64,000 bases of DNA from Blastococcus sp. VKM Ac-2987 (GTDB lineage Bacteria > Actinomycetota > Actinomycetes > Mycobacteriales > Geodermatophilaceae). Below are positions 6,291 through 11,511 of the stretch, one piece after another. The stretch covers positions 1,128,238-1,192,237 of the forward strand of contig NZ_JAPVBG010000002.1 of NCBI RefSeq assembly GCF_026967805.1, written 5' to 3'. Each line of letters starts with the position of its first letter. Positions within the stretch are counted from its first letter, which is position 1. A model generated the notes under the pieces. It was given only the letters and a program-made list of their open reading frames with translations, searched no databases and was not told where the DNA came from. The translations under genes were made by a program, and so were the position numbers.

Positions 6291-6350
6291 GGCTCTCCTC
6301 CTGTCCGACCCGATCGAGTGTGCCACCGCCCACGCTGGGTGGGCGGGGCT

Positions 6351-6366
6351 GCTACCGATCGGTAAC
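6351..6366. promoter_or_regulatory. 16-bp operator upstream of meaA (GTTACC-N4-GGTAAC family)
   Basis: The sequence GCTACCGATCGGTAAC contains a perfect 12-bp palindrome (TACCGATCGGTA) and differs from the shared consensus in one arm base. It lies 20 bases upstream of the meaA ATG, just before a TACACT -10 box. The same pattern recurs upstream of three other acyl-CoA genes in this window. Confidence 0.7.
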
Positions 6367-6371
6367 CGCCC

Positions 6372-6377
6372 TACACT
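6372..6377 (+). promoter_or_regulatory. -10 box for meaA
   Basis: TACACT fits TANNNT and ends 8 bases before the meaA ATG at 6386, so transcription would start at or just before the start codon. The operator at 6351-6366 would overlap the -35 to -10 spacer, a typical repressor position. Confidence 0.55.
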
Positions 6378-6385
6378 CCGCCGGT

Positions 6386-8404
6386 ATGCCGTTCCCGACA
6401 TCGCCGACGGAGCGCGACCGCCCCTGGGTCATGCGCACCTACGCCGGCCACTCCTCGCCGGCCGAGTCCAACGCCCTGTACCGCCGCAACCTGGCGAAGG
6501 GGCAGACCGGGCTCTCGGTCGCCTTCGACCTGCCGACGCAGACCGGCTACGACCCCGACGACGAGCTCGCCGTCGGTGAGGTCGGCAAGGTCGGCGTCCC
6601 GGTCACGCACATCGGGGACATGCGGGCCCTCTTCGACGGCATCCCGCTCGACGAGATGAACACGTCGATGACGATCAACGCCACCGCGATGTGGCTGCTG
6701 GCGCTCTACCAGGCGGTGGCCGAGGAGCACGGGCACGACGTCACGAAGCTCGCGGGGACGACGCAGAACGACATCATCAAGGAGTACCTGTCGCGGGGGA
6801 CCTACGTCTTCCCGCCGGCGCCGTCGATGCGGCTGATCACCGACATGGTCGCCTACACGGTGACGACCATGCCGAAGTGGAACCCGATCAACATCTGCAG
6901 CTACCACCTGCAGGAGGCCGGGGCCACGCCGGTGCAGGAGATCGCCTACGCGATGAGCACCGCGATCGCCGTCCTCGACTCGGTGCGCGACTCGGGCCAG
7001 GTGCCGCCCGACCGCTTCGGCGAGGTCGTCGCCCGCATCTCCTTCTTCGTCAACGCGGGCGTCCGCTTCGTCGAGGAGATGTGCAAGATGCGGGCCTTCA
7101 CCCAGCTCTGGGACGAGCTGACCGAGGAGCGCTACGGCGTGCAGGACCCCAAGCACCGCCGCTTCCGCTACGGCGTGCAGGTCAACTCCCTCGGCCTCAC
7201 CGAGGCGCAGCCGGAGAACAACGTCCAGCGCATCGTGCTGGAGATGCTCGCCGTCACCCTGTCCAAGGACGCCCGCGCCCGCGCCGTGCAGCTGCCGGCC
7301 TGGAACGAGGCCCTCGGCCTGCCCCGGCCCTGGGACCAGCAGTGGTCGCTGCGGCTGCAGCAGGTGCTCGCCTACGAGACCGACCTGCTCGACTACGAGG
7401 ACCTCTTCACCGGCTCGGTCGTGGTGGAGAAGAAGGTCGCCGAGCTCGTCGAGGGCGCCCGGGCCGAGATCGCCCGCGTGCAGGAGATGGGCGGGGCCGT
7501 CGTCGCCGTCGAGTCCGGCTACATGAAGGGCGAGCTGGTGAGCTCGCTGGCCGAGCGCCGGCGGCGGATGGAGAGCGGCGAGGACGTCGTCGTGGGGGTC
7601 AACAAGTTCGACACCACCGAGCCCAACCCGCTGACCGCCGACCTGGACGCGGCGATCATGGTCGTGGACCCGGCCGTCGAGGCCGCCGCCCAGGAGGCGG
7701 TGCGGAAGTGGCGCGCCGAGCGGGACCCGGAGCCGGTGCGGAAGGCCCTGGACGCGCTGCGCACGGCGGCGTCCTCCGACGTCAACCTGATGCCCGCCAC
7801 CCTCGACTGCGCGCGGGCCGGCGTGACGACGGGGGAGTGGGCCGGGGTGCTGCGCGAGGTGTTCGGCGAGTACCGGGCGCCCACCGGTGTGGCCGCGGCC
7901 GCCGGCGGTGGCGAGGCCGACGAGAACCTGACCGCCGTCCGCGAGCGGGTGCGGGCAACCGGCGAGGAGATCGGGGGCCGGTTGCGGTTCCTGGTGGGCA
8001 AGCCGGGCCTGGACGGCCACTCCAACGGCGCCGAGCAGATCGCCGTGCGGGCCCGGGACGCCGGGTTCGAGGTGATCTACCAGGGGATCCGGCTGACCCC
8101 GGAGCAGATCGTCTCGGCGGCGGTCGAGGAGGACGTGCACGTCGTCGGCCTGTCGGTGCTCTCCGGCTCGCACCTGCAGGTCGTGCCCGCGGTGCTGCGG
8201 GGGCTGCGGGAGGCCGGGATGGACGACGTCCCGGTCGTCGTCGGCGGGATCATCCCCGACAGCGACGCCCGCCGGCTGCGCGACCAGGGCGTCGCCCGCG
8301 TCTTCACACCGAAGGACTTCGGGCTCAACGACATCATGGGCCAGGTCGTCGACGTGGTGCGCGAGGCGAACGGTCTCGGCGAGAAGGTGCCCGCCCCGGC
8401 CTGA
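6386..8404 (+). CDS. meaA: Ethylmalonyl-CoA mutase (MeaA), adenosylcobalamin-dependent
   Basis: This 672-residue mutase converts (2R)-ethylmalonyl-CoA to methylsuccinyl-CoA in the ethylmalonyl-CoA pathway. The TIM-barrel substrate domain covers about residues 15-520 and the B12 domain the last 140, with the DGHSNG motif placing the axial ligand at His545. Tyr19 (RTYAGH) and Arg137 (YLSRGTYVFPP) correspond to the carboxylate-recognising pair of methylmalonyl-CoA mutases. The single-chain form and the N-terminal sequence (LAKGQTGLSVAFDLPTQTGY) resemble MeaA proteins more than two-subunit MCM. The ATG at 6386 fits a leaderless promoter. Its 3' end overlaps the opposing DUF2071-like gene by 71 bases. 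MeaB, Ccr and the epimerase are encoded nearby. Confidence 0.93.
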   Translation: MPFPTSPTERDRPWVMRTYAGHSSPAESNALYRRNLAKGQTGLSVAFDLPTQTGYDPDDELAVGEVGKVGVPVTHIGDMRALFDGIPLDEMNTSMTINATAMWLLALYQAVAEEHGHDVTKLAGTTQNDIIKEYLSRGTYVFPPAPSMRLITDMVAYTVTTMPKWNPINICSYHLQEAGATPVQEIAYAMSTAIAVLDSVRDSGQVPPDRFGEVVARISFFVNAGVRFVEEMCKMRAFTQLWDELTEERYGVQDPKHRRFRYGVQVNSLGLTEAQPENNVQRIVLEMLAVTLSKDARARAVQLPAWNEALGLPRPWDQQWSLRLQQVLAYETDLLDYEDLFTGSVVVEKKVAELVEGARAEIARVQEMGGAVVAVESGYMKGELVSSLAERRRRMESGEDVVVGVNKFDTTEPNPLTADLDAAIMVVDPAVEAAAQEAVRKWRAERDPEPVRKALDALRTAASSDVNLMPATLDCARAGVTTGEWAGVLREVFGEYRAPTGVAAAAGGGEADENLTAVRERVRATGEEIGGRLRFLVGKPGLDGHSNGAEQIAVRARDAGFEVIYQGIRLTPEQIVSAAVEEDVHVVGLSVLSGSHLQVVPAVLRGLREAGMDDVPVVVGGIIPDSDARRLRDQGVARVFTPKDFGLNDIMGQVVDVVREANGLGEKVPAPA

Positions 8405-9197: not shown

Positions 9198-9971
9198 ATG
9201 ACCGACCACGGTGCGCCACGGGTCGAGCGCGACGGTGACGTCGTCCGCATCACGATGACCCGCGCGGCGAAGCGCAACGCCCTCTCCCGCGAGCACCTCA
9301 CGCAACTGCTCGGCGCGGTGACCGAGGCGGGGGGAAGCGACGCCGCGGGCATCGTGCTCGCCGCCGAGGGGCCGGTGTTCAGCGCCGGCCACGACTTCGC
9401 CGACGTCGCCGGCGCCCCGCTGCCCGAGGTGCGCAGCCTGCTGCGGCTGTGCACGGAGCTGATGCAGACGGTCCAGGACGTGCCGCAGGTCGTCCTGGCC
9501 CGCGTGCACGCCCTGGCCACGGCCGCCGGCTGCCAGCTGGTCGCCTCGTGCGACCTCGCCGTCGCCGCGGAGTCCGCGGGCTTCGCCGCCCCCGGCGGCA
9601 AGGGCGGCTGGTTCTGCCACACGCCGATGGTGGCGATCGCCCGCAACGTGGGCCGCAAGCGGGCGATGGAGCTGGCACTGACCGGCGACGTCATCGACGC
9701 CGCGACGGCGCTGGACTGGGGGCTGGTCAACCGGGTGGTCCCCGACGCCGACCTGGACACCGCCGTCGACGACCTGATGGAGCGGGCGACCCGGGGCTCG
9801 CGGGCCAGCAAGGGCTGGGGCAAGCAGACGATGTACGCCCAGCTGGACCGGCCGGAGCGGGACGCCTACGCGACCGCCATCGAGGTCATGGCCGCGGCCA
9901 GCCAGCTGCCCGGCGCGCGCGAGGGCATGGCCTCGTTCCTGGAGAAGCGACGTCCGGTCTGGTCGGACTGA
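9198..9971 (+). CDS. Enoyl-CoA hydratase/isomerase family protein, ECHDC3-like, catalytic Glu pair missing
   Basis: This 257-residue protein has a crotonase fold with the CoA-binding elements (RAAKRNALS near residue 23, SAGHDFADV near 64 as oxyanion-hole segment). It resembles the ECHDC3 group. The two glutamates that act as acid and base in true enoyl-CoA hydratases are not conserved: the GGGxELA helix reads ATAAGCQLVASCD, with Gln for Glu, and the second position falls in APGGKGGWFCHTP, without Glu. It is therefore unlikely to be the crotonase of the ethylmalonyl-CoA route and may act on another acyl-CoA. The start is the ATG at 9198. A hairpin follows the stop. Confidence 0.85.
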   Translation: MTDHGAPRVERDGDVVRITMTRAAKRNALSREHLTQLLGAVTEAGGSDAAGIVLAAEGPVFSAGHDFADVAGAPLPEVRSLLRLCTELMQTVQDVPQVVLARVHALATAAGCQLVASCDLAVAAESAGFAAPGGKGGWFCHTPMVAIARNVGRKRAMELALTGDVIDAATALDWGLVNRVVPDADLDTAVDDLMERATRGSRASKGWGKQTMYAQLDRPERDAYATAIEVMAAASQLPGAREGMASFLEKRRPVWSD

Positions 9972-9984
9972 CCGGGATGCACCC

Positions 9985-10002
9985 GGCCGGGTGAACCCGG
10001 CC
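9985..10002 (+). terminator. Hairpin after the ECHDC3-like gene
   Basis: GGCCGGGT (9985-9992) and ACCCGGCC (9995-10002) form a perfect 8-bp stem with a very tight loop, 14 bases after the stop. It separates this gene from the leader-peptide and transporter unit. Confidence 0.5.
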
Positions 10003-10044
10003 ACAGCCCGGAATGCCCGGGCGTGCGGGAGGACTGACGTACCC

Positions 10045-10122
10045 GTGCAGAACATCTGGGGGCTGACGCGACGGCGCACCGTCGACTTCGGCCGCGTGAC
10101 GGTGGACCGCTGTCGGGGCTGA
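10045..10122 (+). CDS. Putative 25-residue leader peptide (Cys-type) upstream of the transporter
   Basis: This short frame starts with GTG at 10045 behind a strong ribosome site (GGGAGGA, 10027-10033). It encodes MQNIWGLTRRRTVDFGRVTV followed by DRCRG. The pattern of a basic patch, a VDF/VDL-R core and a C-terminal Cys-Arg resembles the small putative leader peptides found upstream of sulfur-metabolism and transport genes in actinobacteria, some of which regulate by ribosome stalling at Cys codons. The stop codon lies in the loop of a hairpin (10114-10129), and the transporter starts 42 bases later. I infer attenuation or translational control by cysteine; this is not shown by sequence alone. 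Confidence 0.6.
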   Translation: MQNIWGLTRRRTVDFGRVTVDRCRG

Positions 10123-10129
10123 CGCCCCG
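10114..10129 (+). promoter_or_regulatory. Hairpin at the end of the leader peptide
   Basis: CGGGGC (10114-10119) pairs with GCCCCG (10124-10129) around the loop TGAC. The loop begins with the leader-peptide stop TGA, so a ribosome paused on the last Cys codon would melt or block this stem. It lies 35 bases before the transporter GTG. Confidence 0.45.
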
Positions 10130-10164
10130 CCCGGTCATCCCCCACCCAGAACGGAAATCCCCCC

Positions 10165-11511
10165 GTGCTCGCTCGTCTCCGCCGCGTGCCCTTCGCGGCG
10201 CAGGTCCTCCTCGCCCTGGTCGTCGGCGTCGCCCTCGGCTTCGTCGCCCGTGAGATGGGCACCGTCGCCGACGGCTCGCCCAACTGGCTCACCAGCACCC
10301 TCCAGACCATCGGCGGCACGTTCGTCACGCTGCTGAAGACCCTCGTCCCGCCGCTGATCGTCACCGCGGTGATCGTCAGCATCGCCAACCTCAAGCAGGT
10401 CTCGAACGCGGCCAGGCTGGCCGCCCAGACGCTGCTGTGGTTCGCCATCACCGCGCTGATCGCCGTCGGCATCGGGATCACCCTCGGCCTGCTCACCGAG
10501 CCGGGGCGCAACAGCTCGGTCGACGCCGCCGCGCAGGCGGACCCGACCCGGACCGGCTCCTGGTTCGACTTCCTGAACGGCATCGTGCCCGGCAACATCC
10601 TCGGGCTGCAGTCCTCGGCCGAGGGCGATCTGTCGTTCAACGTCCTGCAGCTGATCGTCATCGCCGCGGCGATCGGCATCGCGGTGCTCAAGGTCGGCGA
10701 GGCGGCCGAGCCGTTCCTCGGCCTCGTCCGCTCCGCCCTGGCCATCGTGCAGAAGGTGCTGTGGTGGGTCATCCTGCTCGCGCCGCTGGGCACCGTCGGC
10801 CTGATCGGCAACGCCGTCGCCAGCTACGGCTGGGAGTCCCTCGGCTCGCTCGGGGTCTTCGCCGGCGCCGTCTACGCGGGTCTCGCGCTGGTGCTGTTCG
10901 TCGTCTACCCGGTGCTGCTGCGCCTGCACGGCCTCTCGCCGCTGCGGTGGTTCGCGGGGGCCTGGCCGGCGATCCAGCTGGCCTTCGTCTCGCGCTCGTC
11001 GATCGGCACGCTGCCGGTGACCGAGCGGGTGACCGAGCAGAACCTCGGCGTCCCGCGGTCCTACGCCTCGTTCGCCGTCCCGCTGGGCGCGACGACGAAG
11101 ATGGACGGCTGCGCGGCGATCTACCCCGCGCTGGCGGCGATCTTCGTCGCCCAGTTCTTCGGGGTGGACCTCGGCCTCACCGACTACCTGCTCATCGTCC
11201 TGGTGTCGGTCATCGGCTCGGCCGCCACCGCCGGCGTCACCGGCGCGGTGGTCATGCTCACCCTCACGCTGTCCACCCTCGGCCTGCCGCTGGCCGGCGT
11301 GGGCCTGCTGCTGGCGGTCGACCCGATCCTCGACATGGGGCGGACCGCGGTGAACGTCGCCGGTCAGGCGCTGGTGCCCACGATCGTGGCCAAGCGGGAG
11401 GGCATCCTCGACCTCGAGCGCTACCGCTCGACGAACACGGTCGACCCGCTGGCCCCGGTCGAGGACCGCGGCGGCGTCGACGCCGACCTGCGGAAGCCCG
11501 TGACCGCGTAG
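10165..11511 (+). CDS. DAACS-family (dicarboxylate/amino acid:cation) symporter
   Basis: This 448-residue membrane protein has the fold of the GltP/DctA/TcyP family: eight transmembrane helices and two re-entrant hairpins. The hairpin-1 serine-rich tip reads SRSSIGTLP (residues 276-284). The family cation motif NMDGT in TM7 is changed to KMDGC (Lys312-Met313-Asp314-Gly315-Cys316), so Na+ coupling may be altered. Substrates in the family include dicarboxylates, Glu/Asp and, for the TcyP group, L-cystine. The Cys-type leader peptide upstream makes a cysteine- or cystine-related substrate plausible, but this is inference. The GTG start at 10165 has only a weak ribosome site. A long terminator follows. 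Confidence 0.85.
   Translation: MLARLRRVPFAAQVLLALVVGVALGFVAREMGTVADGSPNWLTSTLQTIGGTFVTLLKTLVPPLIVTAVIVSIANLKQVSNAARLAAQTLLWFAITALIAVGIGITLGLLTEPGRNSSVDAAAQADPTRTGSWFDFLNGIVPGNILGLQSSAEGDLSFNVLQLIVIAAAIGIAVLKVGEAAEPFLGLVRSALAIVQKVLWWVILLAPLGTVGLIGNAVASYGWESLGSLGVFAGAVYAGLALVLFVVYPVLLRLHGLSPLRWFAGAWPAIQLAFVSRSSIGTLPVTERVTEQNLGVPRSYASFAVPLGATTKMDGCAAIYPALAAIFVAQFFGVDLGLTDYLLIVLVSVIGSAATAGVTGAVVMLTLTLSTLGLPLAGVGLLLAVDPILDMGRTAVNVAGQALVPTIVAKREGILDLERYRSTNTVDPLAPVEDRGGVDADLRKPVTA

Follow-up and report, generated by a model that had tools for sequence, protein, structure and literature searches.

The SDF (DAACS) transporter gene in the stretch of DNA analyzed here (64 kb, referred to as the window) is preceded by a conserved leader frame with a UGU cysteine codon nine codons after a core aspartate codon (Asp+9). 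The frame is best explained as a leader whose translation makes expression of the transporter gene respond to cysteine by attenuation (probability about 0.7, from sequence comparison), and most likely tunes transporter amount to cysteine supply. Leaders of this type stand ahead of genes for such amino-acid/dicarboxylate transporters in many soil actinobacteria. The presence of the frame ahead of the transporter is a real observation: the leader was found ahead of the orthologous SDF transporter gene in 71/71 Geodermatophilaceae upstream regions, which rules out a chance open frame. Conservation of the peptide at orthologous loci had been set beforehand by the initial annotation as a check that could count against it. 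The positions given there also agreed with ours, with a 25-codon frame whose TGA stop lies within the loop of a 6-bp hairpin ending at 10129, 35 nt before the transporter start (Table 1).

Table 1. Positions of the leader, the transporter gene and adjoining features in the window
Feature	Positions	Strand	Basis or remark
GTGA-N6-8-CAC motif, possible regulator site	9991..10005	+	54/71 family upstream regions
Promoter-like pair GGAAT ... ACTG	10010..10036	+	just ahead of leader
GGGAGGA, Shine-Dalgarno-like	10027..10033	+	unconserved in relatives; such a word in 6/71
Leader peptide VQNIWGLTRRRTVDFGRVTVDRCRG, 25 codons, GTG 10045 to TGA 10120-10122	10045..10122	+	frame list and conservation
Core GAC codon (D14)	10084-10086	+	
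Hairpin, outer stem GACCG/CGGTC, inner stem CGGGGC/GCCCCG	10105..10136	+	own-genome fold, z -1.09
UGU Cys codon C23 (Asp+9), proposed pause codon	10111..10113	+	codon bias, family and outside
Inner stem CGGGGC/GCCCCG, loop TGAC holding the stop codon	10114-10119 / 10124-10129	+	
C-rich, G-poor spacer, rut-like, pause codon to transporter start	10117..10164	+	
SDF/DAACS transporter, 448 aa, start GTG 10165	10165..11511	+	PF00375, E 4.9e-102

The window peptide contains a single Cys, at D14+9, and the residues N3, W5, L7, T8, R9-R11, D14, R17, T19 and C23 were invariant in 15 aligned own-genus leaders. The GGGAGGA sequence, initially described as a strong ribosome-binding site, is present at 10027-10033 but is not conserved, since a GGAG, GAGG or AGGA word occurred at this place in 6/71 Geodermatophilaceae upstream regions. 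No Rfam family matched within the 64-kb window at gathering score. Scanning of 9950-10300 found no sigma-70 promoter-like site and no intrinsic terminator-like site (GC stem plus U run), and an intrinsic terminator was thus rejected for this part of the window; relatives were judged by eye.

Upstream of the leader, the pattern GTGA-N6-8-CAC was found in 54/71 family upstream regions (0.5% of shuffles) and the pair GGNA[ACT]-N15-19-N[TC]TG in 61/71 (3% of shuffles), with both patterns written after viewing the sequences and shuffles that preserve base counts only. The pair resembles ECF-type boxes of the disulfide-stress ECF sigma kind. Because these promoter-like boxes lie close upstream in 61/71 regions, the mRNA may begin at or near the leader GTG. 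With regard to a leaderless frame, as in mycobacterial cases, boxes near the GTG were common and a Shine-Dalgarno word was rare (6/71), but the window has such a word. Farther upstream, a methylmalonyl-CoA mutase-type gene (TIGR00641, TIGR00640) lies at 6320-8404, with no visible link to the transporter.

Transporter orthologues were identified in 72/112 Geodermatophilaceae genomes at E 1e-60 (17/23 in the window's own genus); named relatives belong to Blastococcus, Geodermatophilus, Modestobacter and Klenkia. Upstream regions from 71 were used (fragment G033 was left out; G104 is a partial gene), and counts over these genomes ignore relatedness. A strict pattern detected the leader in 63/71, 8 more were added by eye, and a looser pattern detected all 71. 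To cover other lineages, the best 80 of 576 confirmed homologue loci were taken, comprising, as judged from record titles, 20 from Geodermatophilaceae (not summed with the 71, with which they have species in common), 36 from other Actinobacteria and 24 from Alphaproteobacteria. Among these best 80 of 576, the leader was present in 25/36 other actinobacterial loci, for example in Nocardiopsis, Jiangella, Cellulosimicrobium and Streptomonospora; a score >10 gave 24/36, and L068 was added from a separate reading. With the model of 19 leaders described below, it was not found in the other 11/36 actinobacterial loci or in any of the 24 alphaproteobacterial loci of the best 80 (top score 6.1), where the transporters are 64-70% identical to that of the window.

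Two protein-level models were used to score the leaders. With a model of 25 leaders taken from other genera only (none from Geodermatophilaceae, Cys column omitted), the leader was the best frame in 71/71 family upstream regions, 69/71 exceeded the top reverse-strand control (5.0 bits), and the window scored 22.2 bits. A model of 19 NF042934-type leaders detected 61/71 family leaders (median 6.1 bits, window 8.5, control <=2.2) and scored up to 29.9 bits before the transporters of other genera (control 4.8); in an earlier run of this model, family leaders scored ~2 to 11 bits and some were not the best frame. One row of the 19-leader model (L170) itself precedes an SDF gene, and the 25-leader model is the cleaner test. 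The peptide pN/pS was modest, at 0.50 for leaders with Cys at Asp+9 and 0.56 for those with a stop.

The codon at Asp+9 followed a sharp rule. In the 71 family leaders it was TGT in 35, TGC in 1, TGA in 29, TAG in 3, TGG in 2 and GCT in 1, so that UGU was used in 35/36 leaders with Cys there, while all remaining Cys codons of family leaders were TGC (16/16) and 32 mechanically chosen window frames contained 96 TGC and 1 TGT. Outside the family, among the best 80 of 576 homologue loci, Asp+9 was TGT in 24/25 leaders and TAG in 1/25 (UGU in 24/24 Cys leaders). At 32 loci matching NF042934, three of them in the window's genome, Asp+9 was TGT in 29, TGC in 2 and absent in 1, and Cys at Asp+2 was TGC in 13/14. 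Retention of UGU against a TGC-rich genome suggests that decoding speed matters. The UGU codon lies in a hairpin loop in several folds, so pairing would not explain its third base there. UGU at Asp+9, with UGC at the remaining Cys codons, gives a checkable rule for this leader family.

Conservation of the Cys position itself, proposed as a check in the initial annotation, held within the genus (TGT at Asp+9 in 17/17 own-genus leaders) but not across the family, in which Cys was absent at Asp+9 in 35/71 leaders and replaced by a stop in 32, by UGG in 2 and by GCT in 1. Cys input to the leader is thus not universal in Geodermatophilaceae, and sensing of Cys is not the whole story. At least 4 changes of the Asp+9 state (Cys, stop or TGG) were counted on a 38-transporter tree, many forks of which are weak. 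The distance from Asp+9 to the transporter start was 57.0 nt (s.d. 4.2, n = 71), that from the leader stop was 52.4 nt (s.d. 9.4, n = 69), and leaders running beyond the Cys retained the Asp+9-to-start distance. Outside the family, the stretch between Asp+11 and the beginning of the transporter match varied widely in length (65-397 nt, best 80 of 576 homologues). Taken together, the stop swap and the tighter distance from Asp+9 suggest that the position of the ribosome at this codon counts, and point to a fixed site of ribosome pausing at Asp+9. By comparing leaders with Cys and with a stop at this codon, as nature supplies them, one could tell whether such leaders read tRNA charging or a pause caused by the nascent chain.

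Because UGA replaces Cys with a hairpin nearby, selenocysteine at the UGA variants was considered and rejected as hardly tenable. No frame is kept past the UGA, and UAG variants exist (3): the sequence was open to the transporter start in 31/32 stop variants, in all three frame offsets, as it likewise was past the stop in 19/19 leaders with Cys and then a stop. As a separate observation, SelA (selenocysteine synthase) scored over cut-off in 104/108 Geodermatophilaceae genomes, and use of selenocysteine seems to be widespread in the family.

Around Asp+9, many genomes gave a nested hairpin in single-sequence folds (mean z over all 71, -1.3). RNAalifold on MAFFT alignments predicted 6 pairs for one subgroup and no pair for the remaining three sets. 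Since consensus folding gave little, a swap test was applied, in which a leader 3′ end folded better with its own downstream half in 51/71 cases (z -6.7), with z values of -0.7, +2.0 and +2.5 for three control splits. Co-variation of the hairpin across the 71 genomes therefore has support from the swap test but not from consensus folding. The spacer between the pause codon and the transporter averaged 54% C and 21% G, with C exceeding G in 71/71 family regions and in 25/25 regions outside the family (best 80 of 576 homologues), while the 50 nt ahead of 32 window frames contained 39% C and 36% G. Occlusion of a Shine-Dalgarno sequence was rejected as the switch, as the predicted cost of opening the transporter start site did not change: with and without a ribosome at Asp+9 it averaged 9.68 and 9.53 kcal/mol, respectively, and it was lower with the stalled ribosome in 17/38 genomes with full loci.

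These conserved elements (peptide, UGU at Asp+9, hairpin and C-rich spacer) would fit the following sequence of events. A shortage of charged tRNA-Cys would hold the ribosome at the slow UGU codon, where it would block the hairpin and shield the adjoining C-rich spacer, so that RNA polymerase would continue into the transporter gene. With plentiful cysteine, the ribosome would move the few codons further to the stop and depart, the hairpin would form, and the C-rich RNA would be exposed to Rho, leading to an early end of transcription. The conserved nascent chain (LTRRR..D..R.T) probably reinforces the pause at Asp+9. From the co-varying hairpin, the C-rich spacer in 71/71 regions and the lack of any predicted Shine-Dalgarno release, we infer that Rho-type attenuation fits best; the pause, the cysteine signal and its sign are likewise deduced from the layout. 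For the window's own genus, a ribosome-pause leader with Cys input is quite probable, and the Rho step taken alone stands at somewhat below even odds, C-richness being a weak sign.

Other arrangements of the same elements were weighed against cysteine-responsive attenuation through Rho. In translational attenuation, the ribosome-binding site of the transporter would be masked by the 3′ end of the leader or by its hairpin and freed by a stalled ribosome, as a passage of PMC13236596 describes for M. smegmatis cysteine genes, citing Canestrari et al. 2020. The swap test backs such a hairpin, but the start-site opening cost was the same with or without the ribosome and the hairpin predicted in the window stops at 10136, before the start site, which makes masking unlikely here. 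A leader that merely delivers ribosomes to the transporter by re-initiation or coupling, with no sensing, would be served by the short gap between leader stop and transporter start (mean 52 nt) and by the many variants that stop at Asp+9, yet it needs neither a conserved peptide sequence nor the rare UGU, and the distances of 65-397 nt outside the family fit it poorly; we consider it very unlikely. That there is no peptide, and that conserved DNA or RNA (a promoter, a hairpin) leaves the frame open by chance, is barely credible: promoter-like boxes and a hairpin do adjoin the frame, but the model from other genera recovered the leader at the protein level in 71/71, the rule at Asp+9 is codon-specific, and amino acids are conserved over distant genera.

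A further alternative is a TnaC-like nascent-chain arrest, in which the peptide holds the ribosome with Asp+9 in the A site, be it a Cys, Trp or stop codon, and a small molecule may take the place of charged tRNA-Cys as the signal. The replacement of the lost Cys by a stop (32/35) or UGG (2/35), the retention of the peptide core in the stop group (pN/pS 0.56) and the narrower spread of the start distance when measured from Asp+9 instead of the stop all argue for it, while the UGU kept against a TGC-rich genome (35/36 and 24/24) suggests that decoding speed matters; we regard arrest of this kind as rather unlikely. Related to it, and put forward only tentatively, is the idea that the invariant is the ribosome position (Asp+9 codon in the A site) and not the amino acid, the frame being a peptide-assisted pause leader. 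If so, UGU could be swapped for UGA, UAG or UGG while the nascent chain, hairpin and gene distance stay, and one leader frame could be switched within a single family from reading charged tRNA-Cys to a TnaC-like readout of termination.

The window transporter is the only PF00375 match in its genome. Its identity to E. coli proteins was 30% for TcyP, 31% for GltP, 26% for DctA and 25% for SstT; clade residues held in common with one reference alone numbered 15 for TcyP, 12 for DctA, 10 for GltP and 10 for SstT; and a tree of 15 rows, in which the reference branches were very long, did not group it with TcyP and did not settle its branch. These comparisons do not clearly place the transporter in the TcyP branch, as first suggested. 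The cystine symporter TcyP shares the SDF family and the TM7 motif GCAxxYPA, which is absent from GltP, DctA and SstT, but is no nearer in identity than GltP. In TM7, the clade carries KMDGCAAIYPA where GltP and DctA carry NLDG; its Lys lies near a sodium-site position, and ion coupling may be altered. Neighborhoods of 14 named loci among the 80 (best of 576), inspected by eye, showed no consistent pattern, with a single cysteine-synthase-like gene close to L100. For now, a sulfur-related substrate is suggested above all by the leader. The leader would link this SDF transporter clade to the actinobacterial cysteine/sulfur leader regulon and, through that link, gives a testable guess at the substrate: cystine, cysteine or a sulfonated Asp/Glu analogue.

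Among known leaders, the window peptide resembles NF042934, a 'cis_reg_atten' putative leader peptide, in the core L(T/V).R..(V/I)D(L/F)..R..(S/T)..C, in Cys at Asp+9 (C23 = D14+9) and in its actinobacterial origin, and differs in that stop variants at Asp+9 are common in its clade. Searched up to E 10, the NF042934 profile gave no hit to the window peptide, which was therefore not classed as a member; the cut-off (27 bits) was reached by 4/4 other-genus leaders tested (27.0, 31.1, 31.1 and 32.4 bits), and the 2/2 other family-type leaders tested scored below it. NF042934 leaders in actinobacteria stand mostly ahead of sulfur genes: at the 20 of 28 loci where the downstream frame was checked, 12/20 targets had sulfur/cysteine-type domains (PALP of the cysteine-synthase type 4, sulfite/nitrite reductase 4, rhodanese 3, cysteine dioxygenase 1), and the rest were NMT1-like binding proteins (2), luciferase-like monooxygenases (2), an SDF transporter (1, L170) and others (3). 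At L170 (genome G389, same order as the window), an NF042934 leader of 36.4 bits lies 81 nt ahead of the SDF transporter frame; as it was found without using the transporter, it places an SDF gene among NF042934 targets independently. With this locus and the terminal Cys position kept in 17/17 own-genus leaders, the initial reading of the peptide as a leader of the actinobacterial cysteine/sulfur type was borne out.

In the window's own genome, NF042934 matches were found at three places (L207, C5:643237; L208, C1:890322; L209, C1:1073470), where the targets are a rhodanese (leader over cut-off), a TauE/SafE exporter, and a pair of genes for a sulfite/nitrite reductase and, after it, a PAPS reductase. 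Profile A2, which includes all four own-genome leaders as rows and is informative solely on a fifth place, found no fifth clear leader in that genome (next E 0.4). At E 0.001, the large genomes G218, G239, G293 and G357 of genus g19 each carried 10 or 11 NF042934 matches and the window's genome carried 2, which reads as a larger leader regulon in g19. Cysteine dioxygenase degrades cysteine, and a leader of NF042934 type precedes a cysteine dioxygenase gene at L185 (G304), so the sign of the response may vary between genes; leaders near-identical to that of L185 were found at L175, L176, L186 and L187.

According to the title of Canestrari et al. 2020, mycobacterial polycysteine leaders are cysteine-responsive attenuators. 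The leader resembles those of the Ms5788A family (NF042933) in having Cys at its end and differs from these and the mycobacterial polycysteine leaders in having one Cys and no run; it scored 10.7 bits (E 0.32), below the cut-off of 45. L164, from the window's order, passes this cut-off (56.3 bits against 45), has TGT at Asp+9 and precedes a rhodanese. Passages of PMC1262725 (2005) describe candidate cys-operon leaders without conserved terminator hairpins and propose polypyrimidine spacers as Rho sites in mycobacterial cys leaders, a prediction that the authors call weak; those leaders differ in having runs of Cys codons near the stop, and no transporter case is described in these passages. 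Cysteine attenuation is also proposed in a part of PMC4633059 (Shell et al. 2015). Actinobacterial cysteine leaders are thus a known kind. In a literature search, conducted mostly without subscription papers, neither a leader of this kind ahead of an SDF transporter nor the UGU rule nor the stop swap was found described. On this coverage, the UGU rule at Asp+9 and the Cys-to-stop swap appear to be new.

TnaC of the tna operon is a parallel in layout: its leader-peptide pause adjoins a Rho-binding spacer, as may hold here if a ligand, arrest and Rho act on the leader in a like manner. The pause site of TnaC holds a stop, as do the Cys-free variants in Geodermatophilaceae.
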